From Encephalitozoon hellem ATCC 50504 (lineage: Eukaryota; Microsporidia; Unikaryonidae): a stretch of DNA of 64,000 bases. The translations under genes and the position numbers were made by a program. Shown piece by piece: positions 25,559 to 46,413 of this stretch. The notes beneath the pieces are model-generated. The model did not search any database. It was not told where the DNA came from and worked only from the letters and a program-made list of their open reading frames with translations. Numbering within the stretch: position 1 is the first letter of the stretch; the number at the start of each line of letters is the position of its first letter. Location of the stretch: positions 62,001 to 126,000 of the forward strand of contig NC_018480.1 of the NCBI RefSeq assembly GCF_000277815.2, in the 5' to 3' direction.

Positions 25559-25584
25559 ATAATTTTTTTGAAAAACACCCCCCG

Positions 25585-25689
25585 CTTGCCTAGCTGATAG
25601 TACGAGTCTTTTGCCTTTTACTGAAGACTCCCATGGCTAGGCATAACAGCCCACAGCAATTTTTGGAATGCTGATCACTTCAGCGTTAT
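25585..25689 (+). ncRNA. U5 spliceosomal snRNA
   Basis: In the 183-base gap between two leftward genes, an 8-bp outer stem (25587-25594 with 25636-25643, TGCCTAGC/GCTAGGCA) encloses a 7-bp inner stem GAGTCTT/AAGACTC (25604-25610 with 25624-25630). That stem closes a 13-base loop containing GCCTTTTAC, the nine-base invariant U5 loop I. An Sm site AATTTTTGG lies at 25658-25666, and then an 8-bp hairpin AATGCTGA/TCAGCGTT (25667-25674, 25680-25687) with a five-base loop. This order of loop I, Sm site and 3' hairpin defines U5. Both ends of the RNA are estimates. Confidence 0.88.
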
Positions 25690-25741: not shown

Positions 25742-26710
25742 TTAATTCTTCATTCTTTTCTTTTGCCTGTTTGCATAGTCTTGGTAGTTGGATATTATCC
25801 TGTTAACTATGTGCTCTGCAGAGAGATAGTTGAACCTGTTTTCAGCATAGCTATGCTCCACCATCTCTTTGATTTTGTCGTATCTCGACAAGTCCTTTGT
25901 ATCAAAAGAGGGCCCTACGACATTGATTCCATGCTTTTCGACAAACTCACCCCCAACCAAATAGGGCGAAACCACAACCTCATCCACATACCTGCATGAC
26001 ATCAGTGTAAGCATCCTCTCCTTAGTGCTCAGAACCGGATAGTTCCTGGTGTACTCCTTCGTAGTCTCATCATCATGTATCCCAACAATCAGGTAGTCCC
26101 CCATCTCTCTTGCTATTCTCAAGGACACAACATGGCCCGCATGGAACAAATCGAAGTTTCCGTCCACAAACACAATCCTTCCTTTCTTCTCCCTCTTCAT
26201 CGAACTCATAAATAGGTTAATCAATTCGTCATGGTACTTAGAGTTTTTGTTGCACTCTCCATTTTCTACATCTATGCAAGATCCTCTACTTTTTAGCATC
26301 ATCCTTCCAACAGTTTCTGTCGTTGAAATCCCAATAGTCCTTTCAACCTCCCTGAACATCCCCGTCTTTCTAACCTGGAAGTAAGAGTCTTGCCCATTAG
26401 AGTCAAGTATTATGTCATTTCCGTGTGCTACTACATTCACCCCATACTCCTTAATCATATCCATCTGCGTGACAAACGGCGCGTCCCTCACAATCTCGTC
26501 CACATATCTGCATCCTTGGACAACCTCATACCTCTCATCGTCCTCCATCACAGGCAATCCCTTTTCTTGGTTTATGCTGAGAGATGAATGGACCCCTGCT
26601 ATGAGATAATCTCCCAGTGCCTTTGACTGTCTTAAGGCATTTGCATGTCCGTAATGAAACATGTCAAAGCATCCGTCTGCCCAAACCTTTCGGATCTCGT
26701 GGGATGCCAT
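25742..26710 (-). CDS. ECT1: Ethanolamine-phosphate cytidylyltransferase (CDP-ethanolamine pathway)
   Basis: The enzyme has 322 residues from the ATG at 26710. It makes CDP-ethanolamine from CTP and phosphoethanolamine. Two tandem cytidylyltransferase domains are visible: the first with WADGCFDMFHYGHANALRQ and GVHSS, the second from about residue 178 with FVDGNFDLFHAGHV, GIHDDE and YPVLSTKERMLTLMSCRYVDEVV. Two domains distinguish ECT1/PCYT2 from choline-phosphate cytidylyltransferase. The HxGH motif is intact in both. CTP synthase is encoded next door on the same strand, beyond a small RNA gene. Confidence 0.92.
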   Translation of the reverse strand: MASHEIRKVWADGCFDMFHYGHANALRQSKALGDYLIAGVHSSLSINQEKGLPVMEDDERYEVVQGCRYVDEIVRDAPFVTQMDMIKEYGVNVVAHGNDIILDSNGQDSYFQVRKTGMFREVERTIGISTTETVGRMMLKSRGSCIDVENGECNKNSKYHDELINLFMSSMKREKKGRIVFVDGNFDLFHAGHVVSLRIAREMGDYLIVGIHDDETTKEYTRNYPVLSTKERMLTLMSCRYVDEVVVSPYLVGGEFVEKHGINVVGPSFDTKDLSRYDKIKEMVEHSYAENRFNYLSAEHIVNRIISNYQDYANRQKKRMKN

Positions 26711-26768: not shown

Positions 26769-26937
26769 CAGGATGAGTGCCTGAGAGTAAGCCTCATTCA
26801 GTTGGGTAGAACCATACCTAACAGCATTATTCTATCTCAATGATGAAAGATGTCACTTAAGACCGCCCTTTCGGCATCATCCGAGGACTTTCCATAGAGC
26901 CCACTAGGTGCTCCAACGCTGTTCTTCAGACACCCAT
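26769..26937 (-). ncRNA. RNase MRP RNA (or RNase P RNA)
   Basis: This lies in the 307-base space between ECT1 and CTP synthase. A 12-bp helix P1 closes the RNA: 26937-26926 with 26784-26773 (ATGGGTGTCTGA/TCAGGCACTCAT, two G-U pairs). Conserved region I, GGAAAGTCC, is at 26893-26885. Its AAGTCCTC (26890-26883) pairs with GAGGCTT (26795-26789) in helix P4, leaving the universal bulged U. A GCC/GGC hairpin with loop GAAAG (26875-26865) fits the GARAR loop of MRP helix P8. A GATGATG/CATCATT helix and an ATAGAATAA CR-IV-like string follow. The GAAAG loop favours MRP over P. It is about 169 nt. Confidence 0.75.
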
Positions 26938-27017: not shown

Positions 27018-28625
27018 TTATTTTGACCTTTGGCAAGATGCAGATACCAGTCCTGTTATCAGTGGATGGGGCTGGTTGGGCCTTGCAATAAACTCAGGGT
27101 GGAACTGCACTCCAACAAAGAACTTGTGTGTCGAAAGCTCAAAGATCTTCGTGGCCTTTCCCCCGTTGCTGAACCCAACAAACTTCAGCCCGTGCGCCCT
27201 CAGATCCTTCACCTTCTCCCACACAACCTCAAACCGGTGTCTATGCCTCTCCCGGATAGTCTCCTTCCCTCCATACAGACTCTTCACAAGCCCGTCACTG
27301 AGCTCAATCATGCTTCCGCCAACACGCAGCTTCTTATCAACCACCCCGTTCTCGTCGCTGATAAACCTCACAACAAGATCCTTCCCGTTAGCCTCAAACT
27401 CCTCGGAAAACGCATCCTTCATCCCAAGCACATTCCTGCACATCTCAATCACACACAGCTGGTATCCAAGACAGATCCCAAGAAGTGGAATATCCCGCTC
27501 CCTTGCATACCGTATCGCCTTGATCTTCCCCTCAATCCCACGTGCACCAAACCCTCCAGGTATGATGATCCCGTCGCACCGAGACAGGCCAGACTCGTCG
27601 TACTCCTCGGCATTCACCCACTCTATCTCAACATCAACCCCCACACGGGCACCAGAAAACTTCAGTCCATGCACAAGAGACGTGTAGCTATCAAACTGCG
27701 GCCCATACTTCCCAACTATCCCAATCCTTACACTCCTCCCGTGCTTCACACAGAGACGCCCAAACATCTCAAGAACTCCCCGGTCGATCTTCTTATCGCA
27801 GAGCCCGAGAACCCTGTACAGAGAGTCCACAATCCCACGGGACTCAAGAAAAGAAGGCACAGCATACACAGAGTCCAGGTTCGGAAGCCCTATCACATTC
27901 GAAAGCGCAACCCAGCAGTTCTTCGATATCTTCCGGCGCGTCTCCTCAGACGCCTCCCTCACTCCTCTGCACACAATGATGTCGTGGCTCAGCCCAAACA
28001 TCCTGAAGTTCCTGCACCCCATCTGGATGCTCTTTGTCTTCTGCTCCCCACTTTCCAGCTCGGTGAGGTAGTCCACAGACACAAATGCACAGTTGTCCCG
28101 CCCGACGTCATGCTGGAACTTTGCAAGTGCATCCGTGTATATCGAGGACTCGTACTCGCCCACCGTTCCCCCGAGCTCGATGATCACGACGTCTGGGACT
28201 GCAGTGTGGCCATCCTCGAAGGACTCCACGGGTGTCTCACCAACAACTTTGATTCTTCGGATCACATCATCTATCACATGAGGATTGATCTGTAGGGTCT
28301 TTCCAAAAAAGTTTCCTTCTTTTTCACTTTTTATTATATCATGTAACAGCCTTCCTCCAGATACACTGTTAATAACAGAAAGCTTTACCATACTGAATCT
28401 TTCGTAATTTCCAAAGTCCATGTCGCATTCGTGTCCGTCATCAAGAACATAGACCTCCCCATGCTCAGAAGGCGCAAGCATTCTTGCATTGTAGTTGAGA
28501 TATGGATCTATCTTTATATGGGTCACAGTGTGCCCCCTTGACTTGAGCAGTGCCCCGATACTGCTACTGACCACACCCTTCCCAGCACCGGAAATAACGC
28601 CTCCAGAGATAAAAACATACTTCAT
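27018..28625 (-). CDS. URA7: CTP synthase
   Basis: The enzyme has 535 residues from the ATG at 28625. It makes CTP from UTP, ATP and glutamine. The synthetase domain has the P-loop SGGVISGAGKGVVSSSIG, YLNYNARMLAP and IIELGGTVGEYES. The glutaminase domain has PGGFGARG, the nucleophile in LLGICLGYQLCVIE and the C-terminal VQFHPEF His-Glu pair. It is slightly shorter than yeast Ura7 (579). The part below about base 28,260 is much richer in G and C (53-62% in sampled lines) than the gene's first 360 bases (about 30-42%), which leaves a 421-codon open shadow frame opposite. Confidence 0.95.
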   Translation of the reverse strand: MKYVFISGGVISGAGKGVVSSSIGALLKSRGHTVTHIKIDPYLNYNARMLAPSEHGEVYVLDDGHECDMDFGNYERFSMVKLSVINSVSGGRLLHDIIKSEKEGNFFGKTLQINPHVIDDVIRRIKVVGETPVESFEDGHTAVPDVVIIELGGTVGEYESSIYTDALAKFQHDVGRDNCAFVSVDYLTELESGEQKTKSIQMGCRNFRMFGLSHDIIVCRGVREASEETRRKISKNCWVALSNVIGLPNLDSVYAVPSFLESRGIVDSLYRVLGLCDKKIDRGVLEMFGRLCVKHGRSVRIGIVGKYGPQFDSYTSLVHGLKFSGARVGVDVEIEWVNAEEYDESGLSRCDGIIIPGGFGARGIEGKIKAIRYARERDIPLLGICLGYQLCVIEMCRNVLGMKDAFSEEFEANGKDLVVRFISDENGVVDKKLRVGGSMIELSDGLVKSLYGGKETIRERHRHRFEVVWEKVKDLRAHGLKFVGFSNGGKATKIFELSTHKFFVGVQFHPEFIARPNQPHPLITGLVSASCQRSK

Positions 28626-35653: not shown

Positions 35654-35703
35654 AGTTTTATCCTTATGGGCTATTGCATAAAGGGCCTTCTGGCCACCCC
35701 TCT

Positions 35704-35913
35704 ATGGACAGGAAGTTCATGGCGAGTGGAGTATTTCAGTTCCTGGACGAGGTGTGCGAGCAGCGAGGGCCCTTGTTTAGATATGGAAATCTTGTAGGTA
35801 AGGGAGAACTAGCTTTCAACGAAGCATTGATAGAAAATGAGGCTGACGTTCGTAATGCCCTCAATAAGGTTAGGAAGGGAGACCATTCGCGGAGCAGTCT
35901 GATGGATTGGTAA
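35704..35913 (+). CDS. Small hypothetical protein
   Basis: The 69-residue frame starts at the ATG at 35704 and ends with TAA at 35911-35913. It contains VFQFLDEVCEQRGPLFRYGNLVGKG and a charged helical end. I recognise no family. It fills most of the space between eIF2 alpha and NHP2. A GTAAGA sequence overlaps its stop, but joining to a downstream AG makes an immediate stop, so I do not extend it. Confidence 0.4.
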   Translation: MDRKFMASGVFQFLDEVCEQRGPLFRYGNLVGKGELAFNEALIENEADVRNALNKVRKGDHSRSSLMDW

Positions 35914-35951
35914 GAGTACTTAGTTTACTAGAAATGATATCTATACTTGGA

Positions 35952-36281
35952 TTACATAAGCGCTTCCCTGATTTTGTTCAATGTATCACCTCCATCCATT
36001 TCAAGGAAAACACAAGTGAACCGGCCTGGAATGGAAGACTTCCTTCTAACAAAAATGTACTTGACACCTCTGTCTTCGCAGAGTGCGGGTAGGTGTGTGA
36101 TTAAATCCATAGGTGTTGTATCTGCTGTCAAGACCAGCAGGCCTTTTGATCCCTCCAGAATGCGCTTCTGGCATTTCTTAATTCCTGTGGACAGCGTGCT
36201 TCTTTCTGCCTGCTCAGATATTAGCTTGGCTATCACCTCTTCGGCGGGCTCTGAGGCCAGTGGACTTGCTATTGGGATCAT
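35952..36281 (-). CDS. NHP2: NHP2-like H/ACA snoRNP protein (L7Ae family)
   Basis: The product has 109 residues from the ATG at 36281; a longer in-frame start at 36368 would overlap the divergent gene and add residues absent from the family. The start IPIASPLAS matches the yeast NHP2 string PFAKPLAS. The RNA-binding core KGLLVLTADTTPMDLITHLPALCEDRGVKYIFV is clear L7Ae/NHP2. SNU13 is the alternative but lacks the PLAS start. NHP2 binds H/ACA snoRNAs that guide pseudouridylation. Confidence 0.8.
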   Translation of the reverse strand: MIPIASPLASEPAEEVIAKLISEQAERSTLSTGIKKCQKRILEGSKGLLVLTADTTPMDLITHLPALCEDRGVKYIFVRRKSSIPGRFTCVFLEMDGGDTLNKIREALM

Positions 36282-45252: not shown

Positions 45253-45794
45253 ATGATAAGAACAACATTCAAGACTCTGTGTCTCCTTCTTAATAACATA
45301 CTGCTGCTACTTGCAAGCTGCATTCTTGGAGCACTGATATCCTCTGTACCGGACTCCAAGAGCATATACAAGAATGTAAACAAGCAGATAACTTACATGC
45401 TGCTCCTCGCAAATGCAGGCCTTGCTATCTTTACTCTCGTGATAGTCCAGAATCTTAACGATGTGTTCCTACACAGGGCGAGGTCTCCAAGAGGAGTTGA
45501 AACAAAAATGAAGATCCAGTGGATAATACTCTCTATAGTGACATTTTTCTACGGTACTTTTCACTTCCCACTAATTACATCAAACATGGACAGACTTTTC
45601 AAAATGGACATGATGGCCTTAATTACTGTCTTGATATTCACCTTACAGGTAAGTGGAAAAACTAATTTTAGATAGTCATGCTCTTTATCATATACTCAAT
45701 GCATCCAGACTTGTTTGGAACCAAGTACAACCGAGAGGTTCGGAGCTACATCGAGAGGCTTGAAGCAGAGAATTACGATCAAACCGAGATTTGA
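45253..45794 (+). CDS. Four-segment membrane protein, one 23-nt intron
   Basis: The coding sequence is exons 45253-45648 and 45672-45794, 172 residues, in frame. Four hydrophobic segments are visible: about residues 8-28, 46-66, 88-108 and 118-143. The intron lies in the middle of the fourth (FTLQ|IVMLFIIYS), so unspliced RNA would give a protein truncated in its last segment. The C-terminus is polar and acidic (NREVRSYIERLEAENYDQTEI). No family recognised. It may be specific to microsporidia. Confidence 0.7.
45649..45671 (+). other. Spliceosomal intron, 23 nt, phase 0
   Basis: It begins GTAAGT and ends ACTAATTTTAG, the same size and 3' layout as the second PGS1 intron. Removal joins two parts of one hydrophobic helix in frame and lengthens the protein from a stop six codons past the junction to a longer reading frame. 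Confidence 0.82.
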
Positions 45795-45907
45795 CGGGAC
45801 ACATCCAAAGACGACGATATCTCTAGGAATAAATTCCATTTATTTTATAACTTACAGGAATGTCCGAAATGGGAGGCTCCAGAGGCTTTATTATGTAAAG
45901 ATGTCCA

Positions 45908-46138
45908 CTAGGCGCCGTGCCTCTCGTCTATCTTCCTCTTTATCCTTGATAGGAAGTTACGGCATTTCATCTGGTCGCATATGGACCACTTCGAAGAGCT
46001 GTTGTTCATCTCCCTCACCATGGTGCGTATCTTCTTGCCCATGTTCATTCGGTACCTCTCCTCCCTTACACCAAAGTCCTCTGTGCGGTTGCTCACCAGA
46101 GCCATCTGAAAGTCCAGTGCTGCAAATTCGTAGCTCAT
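45908..46138 (-). CDS. Small hypothetical protein
   Basis: The product has 76 residues from the ATG at 46138 (a TTG at 46207 is in frame). It is helical, basic and polar (MNMGKKIRTMVREMNN, RNFLSRIKRKIDERHGA). No family recognised. It is the only gene-like frame between the convergent membrane gene and the divergent SDR, so I list it with low confidence. Confidence 0.4.
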   Translation of the reverse strand: MSYEFAALDFQMALVSNRTEDFGVREERYRMNMGKKIRTMVREMNNSSSKWSICDQMKCRNFLSRIKRKIDERHGA

Positions 46139-46413
46139 CAGGTTAACCTCCAAATAAAACTTTTTATTTATATTTTGTGTCTCAGAGATTGCAGTCGTTT
46201 TTAGCAAATAAATCAGTATTTATTTCGGGCCAAATTAGACATCTTCTTGCAGTGCAAAAATATTTCAAAATTAAATCTCCAATCTCCCGCCATCGCCGTG
46301 CTATACAGGCCCCTTAATTAAACGGTTTTGACTTTCATTAACCCAAACAGCCACTGCCAAAAGTCATCTTTCATGTTCAGAGACAAATGTGATGCTTCCT
46401 GCCAAAACAAAAG
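46139..46413. promoter_or_regulatory. AT-rich divergent region with a perfect 8-bp palindromic hairpin
   Basis: The 275 bases hold AAATAAAT-CAGT-ATTTATTT at 46206-46225, an exact inverted repeat with a four-base spacer. Several A/T-rich stretches lie around it. No RNA gene or snoRNA box pair was found. It is one of the largest gene-free stretches of the window. Confidence 0.4.

Follow-up and report, generated by a model that had tools for sequence, protein, structure and literature searches.

The 307-nt gap between a CTP synthase and a cytidylyltransferase gene in Encephalitozoon hellem raises the question of whether it harbors a functional RNA gene and, if so, whether the product belongs to RNase MRP or to RNase P. 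The window analyzed is the whole stretch of 64,000 nucleotides (NC_018480.1, 62,001 to 126,000), to which all positions without a contig or region name refer. The species name is supported by two proteins of this genome, which agree at 100% with database entries labeled E. hellem. Both genes bordering the gap reside on the minus strand, CTP synthase upstream (27018-28625; Pfam CTP_synth_N and GATase) and a tandem-domain cytidylyltransferase downstream (25742-26710; Pfam CTP_transf_like in two stretches), the latter presumably of the ethanolamine-phosphate type. A preliminary description of this DNA placed an RNase MRP- or P-type RNA on the minus strand at 26769-26937, and this is borne out by Rfam. 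When the window was scanned against 4227 families, two matches exceeded the threshold, one to U5 snRNA and the other to RNase_MRP (RF00030), which was found on the minus strand at 26936-26775 with 61.6 bits (gathering score 50) and an E value of 9.3e-15. The alignment spans model positions 1-266 of 266 and is thus full length. In the complete 2.25-Mb genome, the single reported RNase_MRP match is this very locus (25 of 28 candidates scored). Positions 26769-26937 almost certainly represent the gene for the RNA subunit of RNase MRP, present once in the E. hellem genome and comprising between 162 nt (Rfam match) and 169 nt (up to the T run). The very small size of about 169 nt given earlier agrees with this, and the span stops immediately before a run of six T (26768-26763, minus strand), the stop that had also been pointed out. 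The RNA would have a transcription unit of its own, probably read by RNA polymerase III, with this T6 run as the probable terminator. The gap is not the largest gene-free stretch of the window, as had been stated, and ranks third in a mechanical tiling with ATG-initiated open reading frames of at least 90 aa. The two larger gaps, 45676-46413 (738 nt) and 35654-36030 (377 nt), both contain smaller reading frames, i.e. overlapping ones of 76 aa (minus strand) and 81 aa (plus strand) in the former, which is devoid of Rfam matches over threshold, and one of 69 aa (35704-35913, plus strand) in the latter.

All structural elements described in the following are located on the minus strand. The molecule is closed by the 12-bp helix P1 that had been proposed, with 12 of 12 pairs, two of them G.U, between 26937-26926 and 26784-26773. 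P2 is formed by 26918-26923 and 26820-26825 (six of six pairs) and leaves room for as many as four additional pairs on its inner side. P3 consists of one short hairpin (26895-26915) with all six pairs of P3a formed and two possible pairs at the tip, and no P3b is seen at these positions. Conserved region I was correctly recognized beforehand: CR-I reads GGAAAGUCC at 26893-26885 and is part of a segment (26882-26893) that also provides the 5' strand of P4. The same holds true for P4 with its bulged U, as AAG and CCUCG on either side of U26887 form 3+5 pairs, eight of eight, between 26890-26882 and 26796-26789, the latter being CR-V (UGAGGCUU). A further stem starts directly after P4 (26876-26881 with 26839-26844) and corresponds to P5 in the nomenclature of PMC13184271. 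It amounts to up to 6-7 bp, not 3, because it can be written as GAUGAUG/CAUCAUU with seven of seven pairs, the innermost of which competes with P8. The P8 hairpin, GCC-GAAAG-GGC with a GARAR pentaloop and three of three pairs, resides at 26865-26875. As a candidate for P9 or P10 there is only a 3-bp GUC/GAC hairpin (26863-26852). The CR-IV region AGAAUAAU (26826-26833) immediately precedes the 3' strand of P2, and a 4-bp P19 hairpin at 26805-26818 emerges from both the model alignment and a pairing test. The RNA would fold as a catalytic pseudoknot, with P1 and P4 as the closing helices.

How does this RNA compare with RNase MRP RNAs from other organisms? Via the Rfam consensus and published descriptions rather than their sequences, human RMRP and yeast NME1 were found to have P1, P2, P3a, P4, the P4-adjacent stem, a GARAR P8 and P19 in common with the E. 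hellem RNA, which differs from them in lacking P3b and in having a very small second domain. P1, P2, P3a, P8 and P10 are listed as universal MRP helices in a passage of PMC1796607, where microsporidian MRP RNAs are stated to be without P3b and P6, and the MRP RNAs of Encephalitozoon cuniculi and Nosema (Antonospora) locustae are called the shortest in a passage of PMC3228867. Judged by description only, the E. hellem RNA resembles the latter two in being very short and the microsporidian RNAs in general in the loss of P3b. As small size and P3b loss have been published for microsporidia, the E. hellem RNA is an expected orthologue and an ordinary, well-supported addition to the very small type of MRP RNA already known from microsporidia. 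A literature search yielded no publication naming the RNase MRP locus of E. hellem.

The RNase P and MRP families have a common core, and the earlier description had left it at "RNase MRP (or P)". Two features of the RNA even point toward RNase P, namely a CR-IV region that can be read in the 8-nt form of RNase P and a P8 hairpin that is identical in both RNAs of this organism. Still, it is very improbable that the locus in the window encodes RNase P RNA, an identity rejected in view of a better RNase P RNA elsewhere. A genome search with RF00009 (E up to 1; 15 of 178 candidates scored) reported one match only, the nuclear RNase P RNA on contig C7 (82069-82308, minus strand, corresponding to L002:1501-1740), with 92.6 bits, coverage of model positions 1-301 of 301 and confirmation by cmscan. 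At the MRP locus, RF00009 (gathering score 28 bits) is not listed in the window scan. The two covariance searches that had been suggested beforehand thus each led to a match above gathering, RF00030 at this locus and RF00009 on a different contig, and as MRP and P RNA are encoded at separate loci, the one in the window is that of MRP. RNase_MRP furthermore attains the best score of its clan at this locus. No dropped same-clan overlap is reported here in the gathering-level window scan, and in a permissive scan of 501 bases one lower-scoring same-clan overlap was dropped in favor of RNase_MRP, the family remaining unnamed in the output. Matches to RF01354 (CRISPR-DR45) and queA in the same 501 bases are below gathering (E 0.21 and 0.28) and were dismissed as chance.

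Structure is informative as well. According to PMC13184271, MRP RNA is marked by a six-nt CR-IV, by a GARAR pentaloop in P8 and by a stem adjoining P4 without a gap, the latter two being described as exclusive to MRP; in RNase P RNA, P7 is displaced and CR-IV comprises eight nt. In the MRP RNA of E. hellem, 0 nt separate P4 from the next stem, whereas by our own reading about 3 nt precede the P7 region in its RNase P RNA, which also contains an 8-nt CR-IV, AGUCCAAC. The two RNAs share the pseudoknot core, the 11-nt P8 hairpin and a P3 reduced to a single short hairpin, and they differ in length (162 versus 240 nt for RNase P RNA), in the letters of P4 and in the second domain, which is larger in RNase P RNA. 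What discriminates MRP in this case is the score with the covariance model, the finding that RNase P RNA is encoded elsewhere and the stem starting directly after P4.

Independent of the assignment to one of the two families, the integrity of the fold was assessed. Among 29 counted pairs in P1 (10), P2 (6), P3a (6) and P4 (7), all 29 are standard pairs and none is broken; this count omits one gapped column of P3a as well as P8 and P19. In comparison with the Rfam consensus, 15 of the 29 pairs are unchanged, one differs in a single partner and 13 have both partners exchanged, the latter distributed over P1 (6/10), P2 (3/6), P3a (3/6) and P4 (1/7). The counted pairs stem from an alignment fitted to the RF00030 model and the reference is the family consensus and not a set of close relatives. 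The P4 pairing in this count is absent from the structure line printed with the model and was added as we presume it to be. By itself, a P4-type motif arose 6 times when the 307-nt gap was subjected to 5000 dinucleotide shuffles, and the window contains it once in its two strands combined. The folding energy is weak evidence on its own (z -1.82), since 8 of 200 shuffles fold equally well, and folding by energy alone does not yield P8, for which the pair probability is 0.17 in the isolated region. Pattern scans at the DNA level for relatives in viral and genome contig collections gave 0 stretches each, while a protein scan of viral contigs with the neighboring cytidylyltransferase gave nine pattern stretches and 0 confirmed relatives. 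That the locus is a pseudogene, or AT-rich intergenic DNA that resembles the family by chance, as a fold energy just 1.8 s.d. below that of shuffled sequences might indicate, is scarcely credible in view of the E value of 9.3e-15, core helices that are intact despite changes on both sides, with 0 of 29 pairs broken, and the absence of any other reported copy in the genome.

Two observations on the RNAs of E. hellem are less expected, and both come from this single genome. The first concerns the P8 hairpin GCCGAAAGGGC. The GAAAG hairpin described earlier as typical of MRP P8 is indeed present at 26875-26865, yet it is of no use for telling MRP from P in E. hellem, whose RNase P RNA contains the identical 11-nt hairpin (L002:1670-1680, minus strand). 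The best local alignment and the longest common word (11 nt) of the two RNAs both consist of GCCGAAAGGGC, model alignments place it at P8 in either case, and the isolated region of the P RNA folds into exactly the GAAAG pentaloop. Pairs of shuffled RNAs share a word of at least 11 nt in 43 of 5000 trials; the coincident position at P8 would make a chance origin less likely. The genome contains GCCGAAAGGGC three times, which shows that the 11-mer alone is not very rare. The third copy (C4:68016-68026, minus strand) lies in a piece with an open frame of 283 codons on its other strand and is taken as background. Literature passages on GARAR and RNase MRP report no GARAR loop in a eukaryotic P RNA. 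According to PMC1796607, some P RNAs of bacteria and archaea possess GNRA loops, and a P8 loop rich in purines could hence also be retained or convergent in P RNA.

The second observation concerns CR-IV, for which six nucleotides are called rigorous for MRP in a passage of PMC13184271. The last six nucleotides in the E. hellem MRP RNA, AAUAAU, lack the conserved G and do not fit the 6-nt form AGNNAN. The 8-nt form of P RNA, AGNNNAAN, is matched by the last eight nucleotides, AGAAUAAU, with the boundaries of P2 being uncertain. Shuffled linkers fit the 8-nt form in 3.7% of 100,000 shuffles. In the cmscan alignment, the conserved G of CR-IV is replaced, and it is restored in another register. 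Since an extension of P2 by up to four pairs would shift the boundary, the point is suggestive only, and in this one genome the CR-IV of MRP RNA may best be read as an 8-nt element of RNase P length.

It is conceivable, though on balance unlikely, that the signatures of P and MRP are mixed in E. hellem because both enzymes converged on a common RNA-protein interface. This reading combines the GARAR P8 in P RNA, the 8-nt CR-IV in MRP RNA, the P3 stubs of both RNAs, the lack of a detectable Rpp20/25 partner and a protein set that looks reduced, with a Pop1 of 405 aa and two tandem Rpp30 genes. In such a scenario, both enzymes would have a P8 loop that docks on P4 and holds the N-terminal motif of Pop1. 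Should relatives also show the shared P8 hairpin and the long CR-IV, two motifs currently used as signatures to distinguish MRP from P would not be absolute, and an exception would be needed both in annotation rules and in the proposed substrate-anchor mechanism. With the two RNA cores located exactly in a nuclear genome of 2.25 Mb, minimal RNase P and MRP become comparable within one organism.

The MRP RNA would assemble with the proteins Pop1, Pop4, Pop5 and Rpp30 shared by both enzymes. Pop1 contains POPLD and matches the POP1 profile above cut-off, as do two p30 (Rpp30) proteins, one of the Rpp14/Pop5 type and one of the Rpr2/Rpp21 type with their respective profiles, and Pop4 (p29) is represented by a sub-threshold match (E 1.1e-4). 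The profiles for Rpp20 and for Alba, which we take to be the Rpp25/Pop6 type, gave no match in the genome at E up to 1; the control genomes that did match them are prokaryotic, and sensitivity for divergent microsporidian proteins is thus unproven. RPP20-RPP25 binds P3 itself. In the human enzyme, the pair wraps the RNA in the large lobe, as described in a passage of PMC13184271, and a joint loss of P3b and of P3-binding proteins would therefore make sense. The two p30 genes are arranged in tandem on the plus strand of contig C8 (approximately 119010-120370; L006:1495-2211 and 2274-2921), and the encoded proteins are 37% identical to each other. The upstream copy has 13 database matches including itself and two from Ordospora, and the downstream copy has four including itself, the three named ones all stemming from Encephalitozoon. 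Human RNase MRP contains two Rpp30 subunits within one complex (PMC13184271, in the passage concerned), and the two E. hellem copies might accordingly be specialized.

A second RNA gene resides close by. The gene for U5 spliceosomal RNA (25582-25686, plus strand; Rfam 55.1 bits, gathering 40) lies in the gap on the far side of the cytidylyltransferase gene as seen from the MRP gene, which is encoded about 1.1 kb away on the other strand. The 11-mer TTTTGGAATGC is found at the Sm site of U5 (25661, plus strand) and just upstream of the MRP gene (26950, minus strand) and nowhere else in the window. Genome-wide, it has nine matches compared with one for a reversed control, more than the control suggests. 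At the other seven places, pieces of 801 bases were devoid of Rfam matches with E up to 0.5, and five of these places lie in stop-free frames of at least 138 codons. As the copy upstream of the MRP gene likewise lies in such a frame (259 codons, antisense), this property does not discriminate. We found no link of TTTTGGAATGC to RNA genes, and its occurrence as an upstream element common to U5 and MRP is probably, albeit not provenly, due to chance.

RNase MRP is an enzyme that cuts RNA and is known above all for its part in the making of ribosomes. The assembled enzyme would cut single-stranded RNA, which in other eukaryotes is ITS1 of the pre-rRNA, and by analogy ITS1 may be the target in E. 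hellem as well. According to passages of PMC1796607, microsporidia such as E. cuniculi are without ITS2 and the ITS1 of E. cuniculi is short; the same article cites a paper the title of which argues against full excision of ITS1. In the rDNA of E. hellem on contig C1, the SSU model ends at L010:1501 (minus strand) and LSU starts at 1466 with the archaeal and at 1366 with the eukaryotic model, a discrepancy meaning that the 5.8S-like start is not sharply placed. By our own reading, the spacer between SSU and LSU (region L010:1367-1500, minus strand) is on the order of 34-50 nt and U-rich. The presence of MRP RNA sharpens an old puzzle, the nature of the MRP target in a species whose ITS1 is very short and in which ITS2 is missing. 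In the rDNA scan, where same-clan overlaps are dropped, no 5.8S row is listed. Five of 38 SSU candidates were scored, all with 1113.6 bits, and four of these copies are located within 4.3 kb of a contig start.
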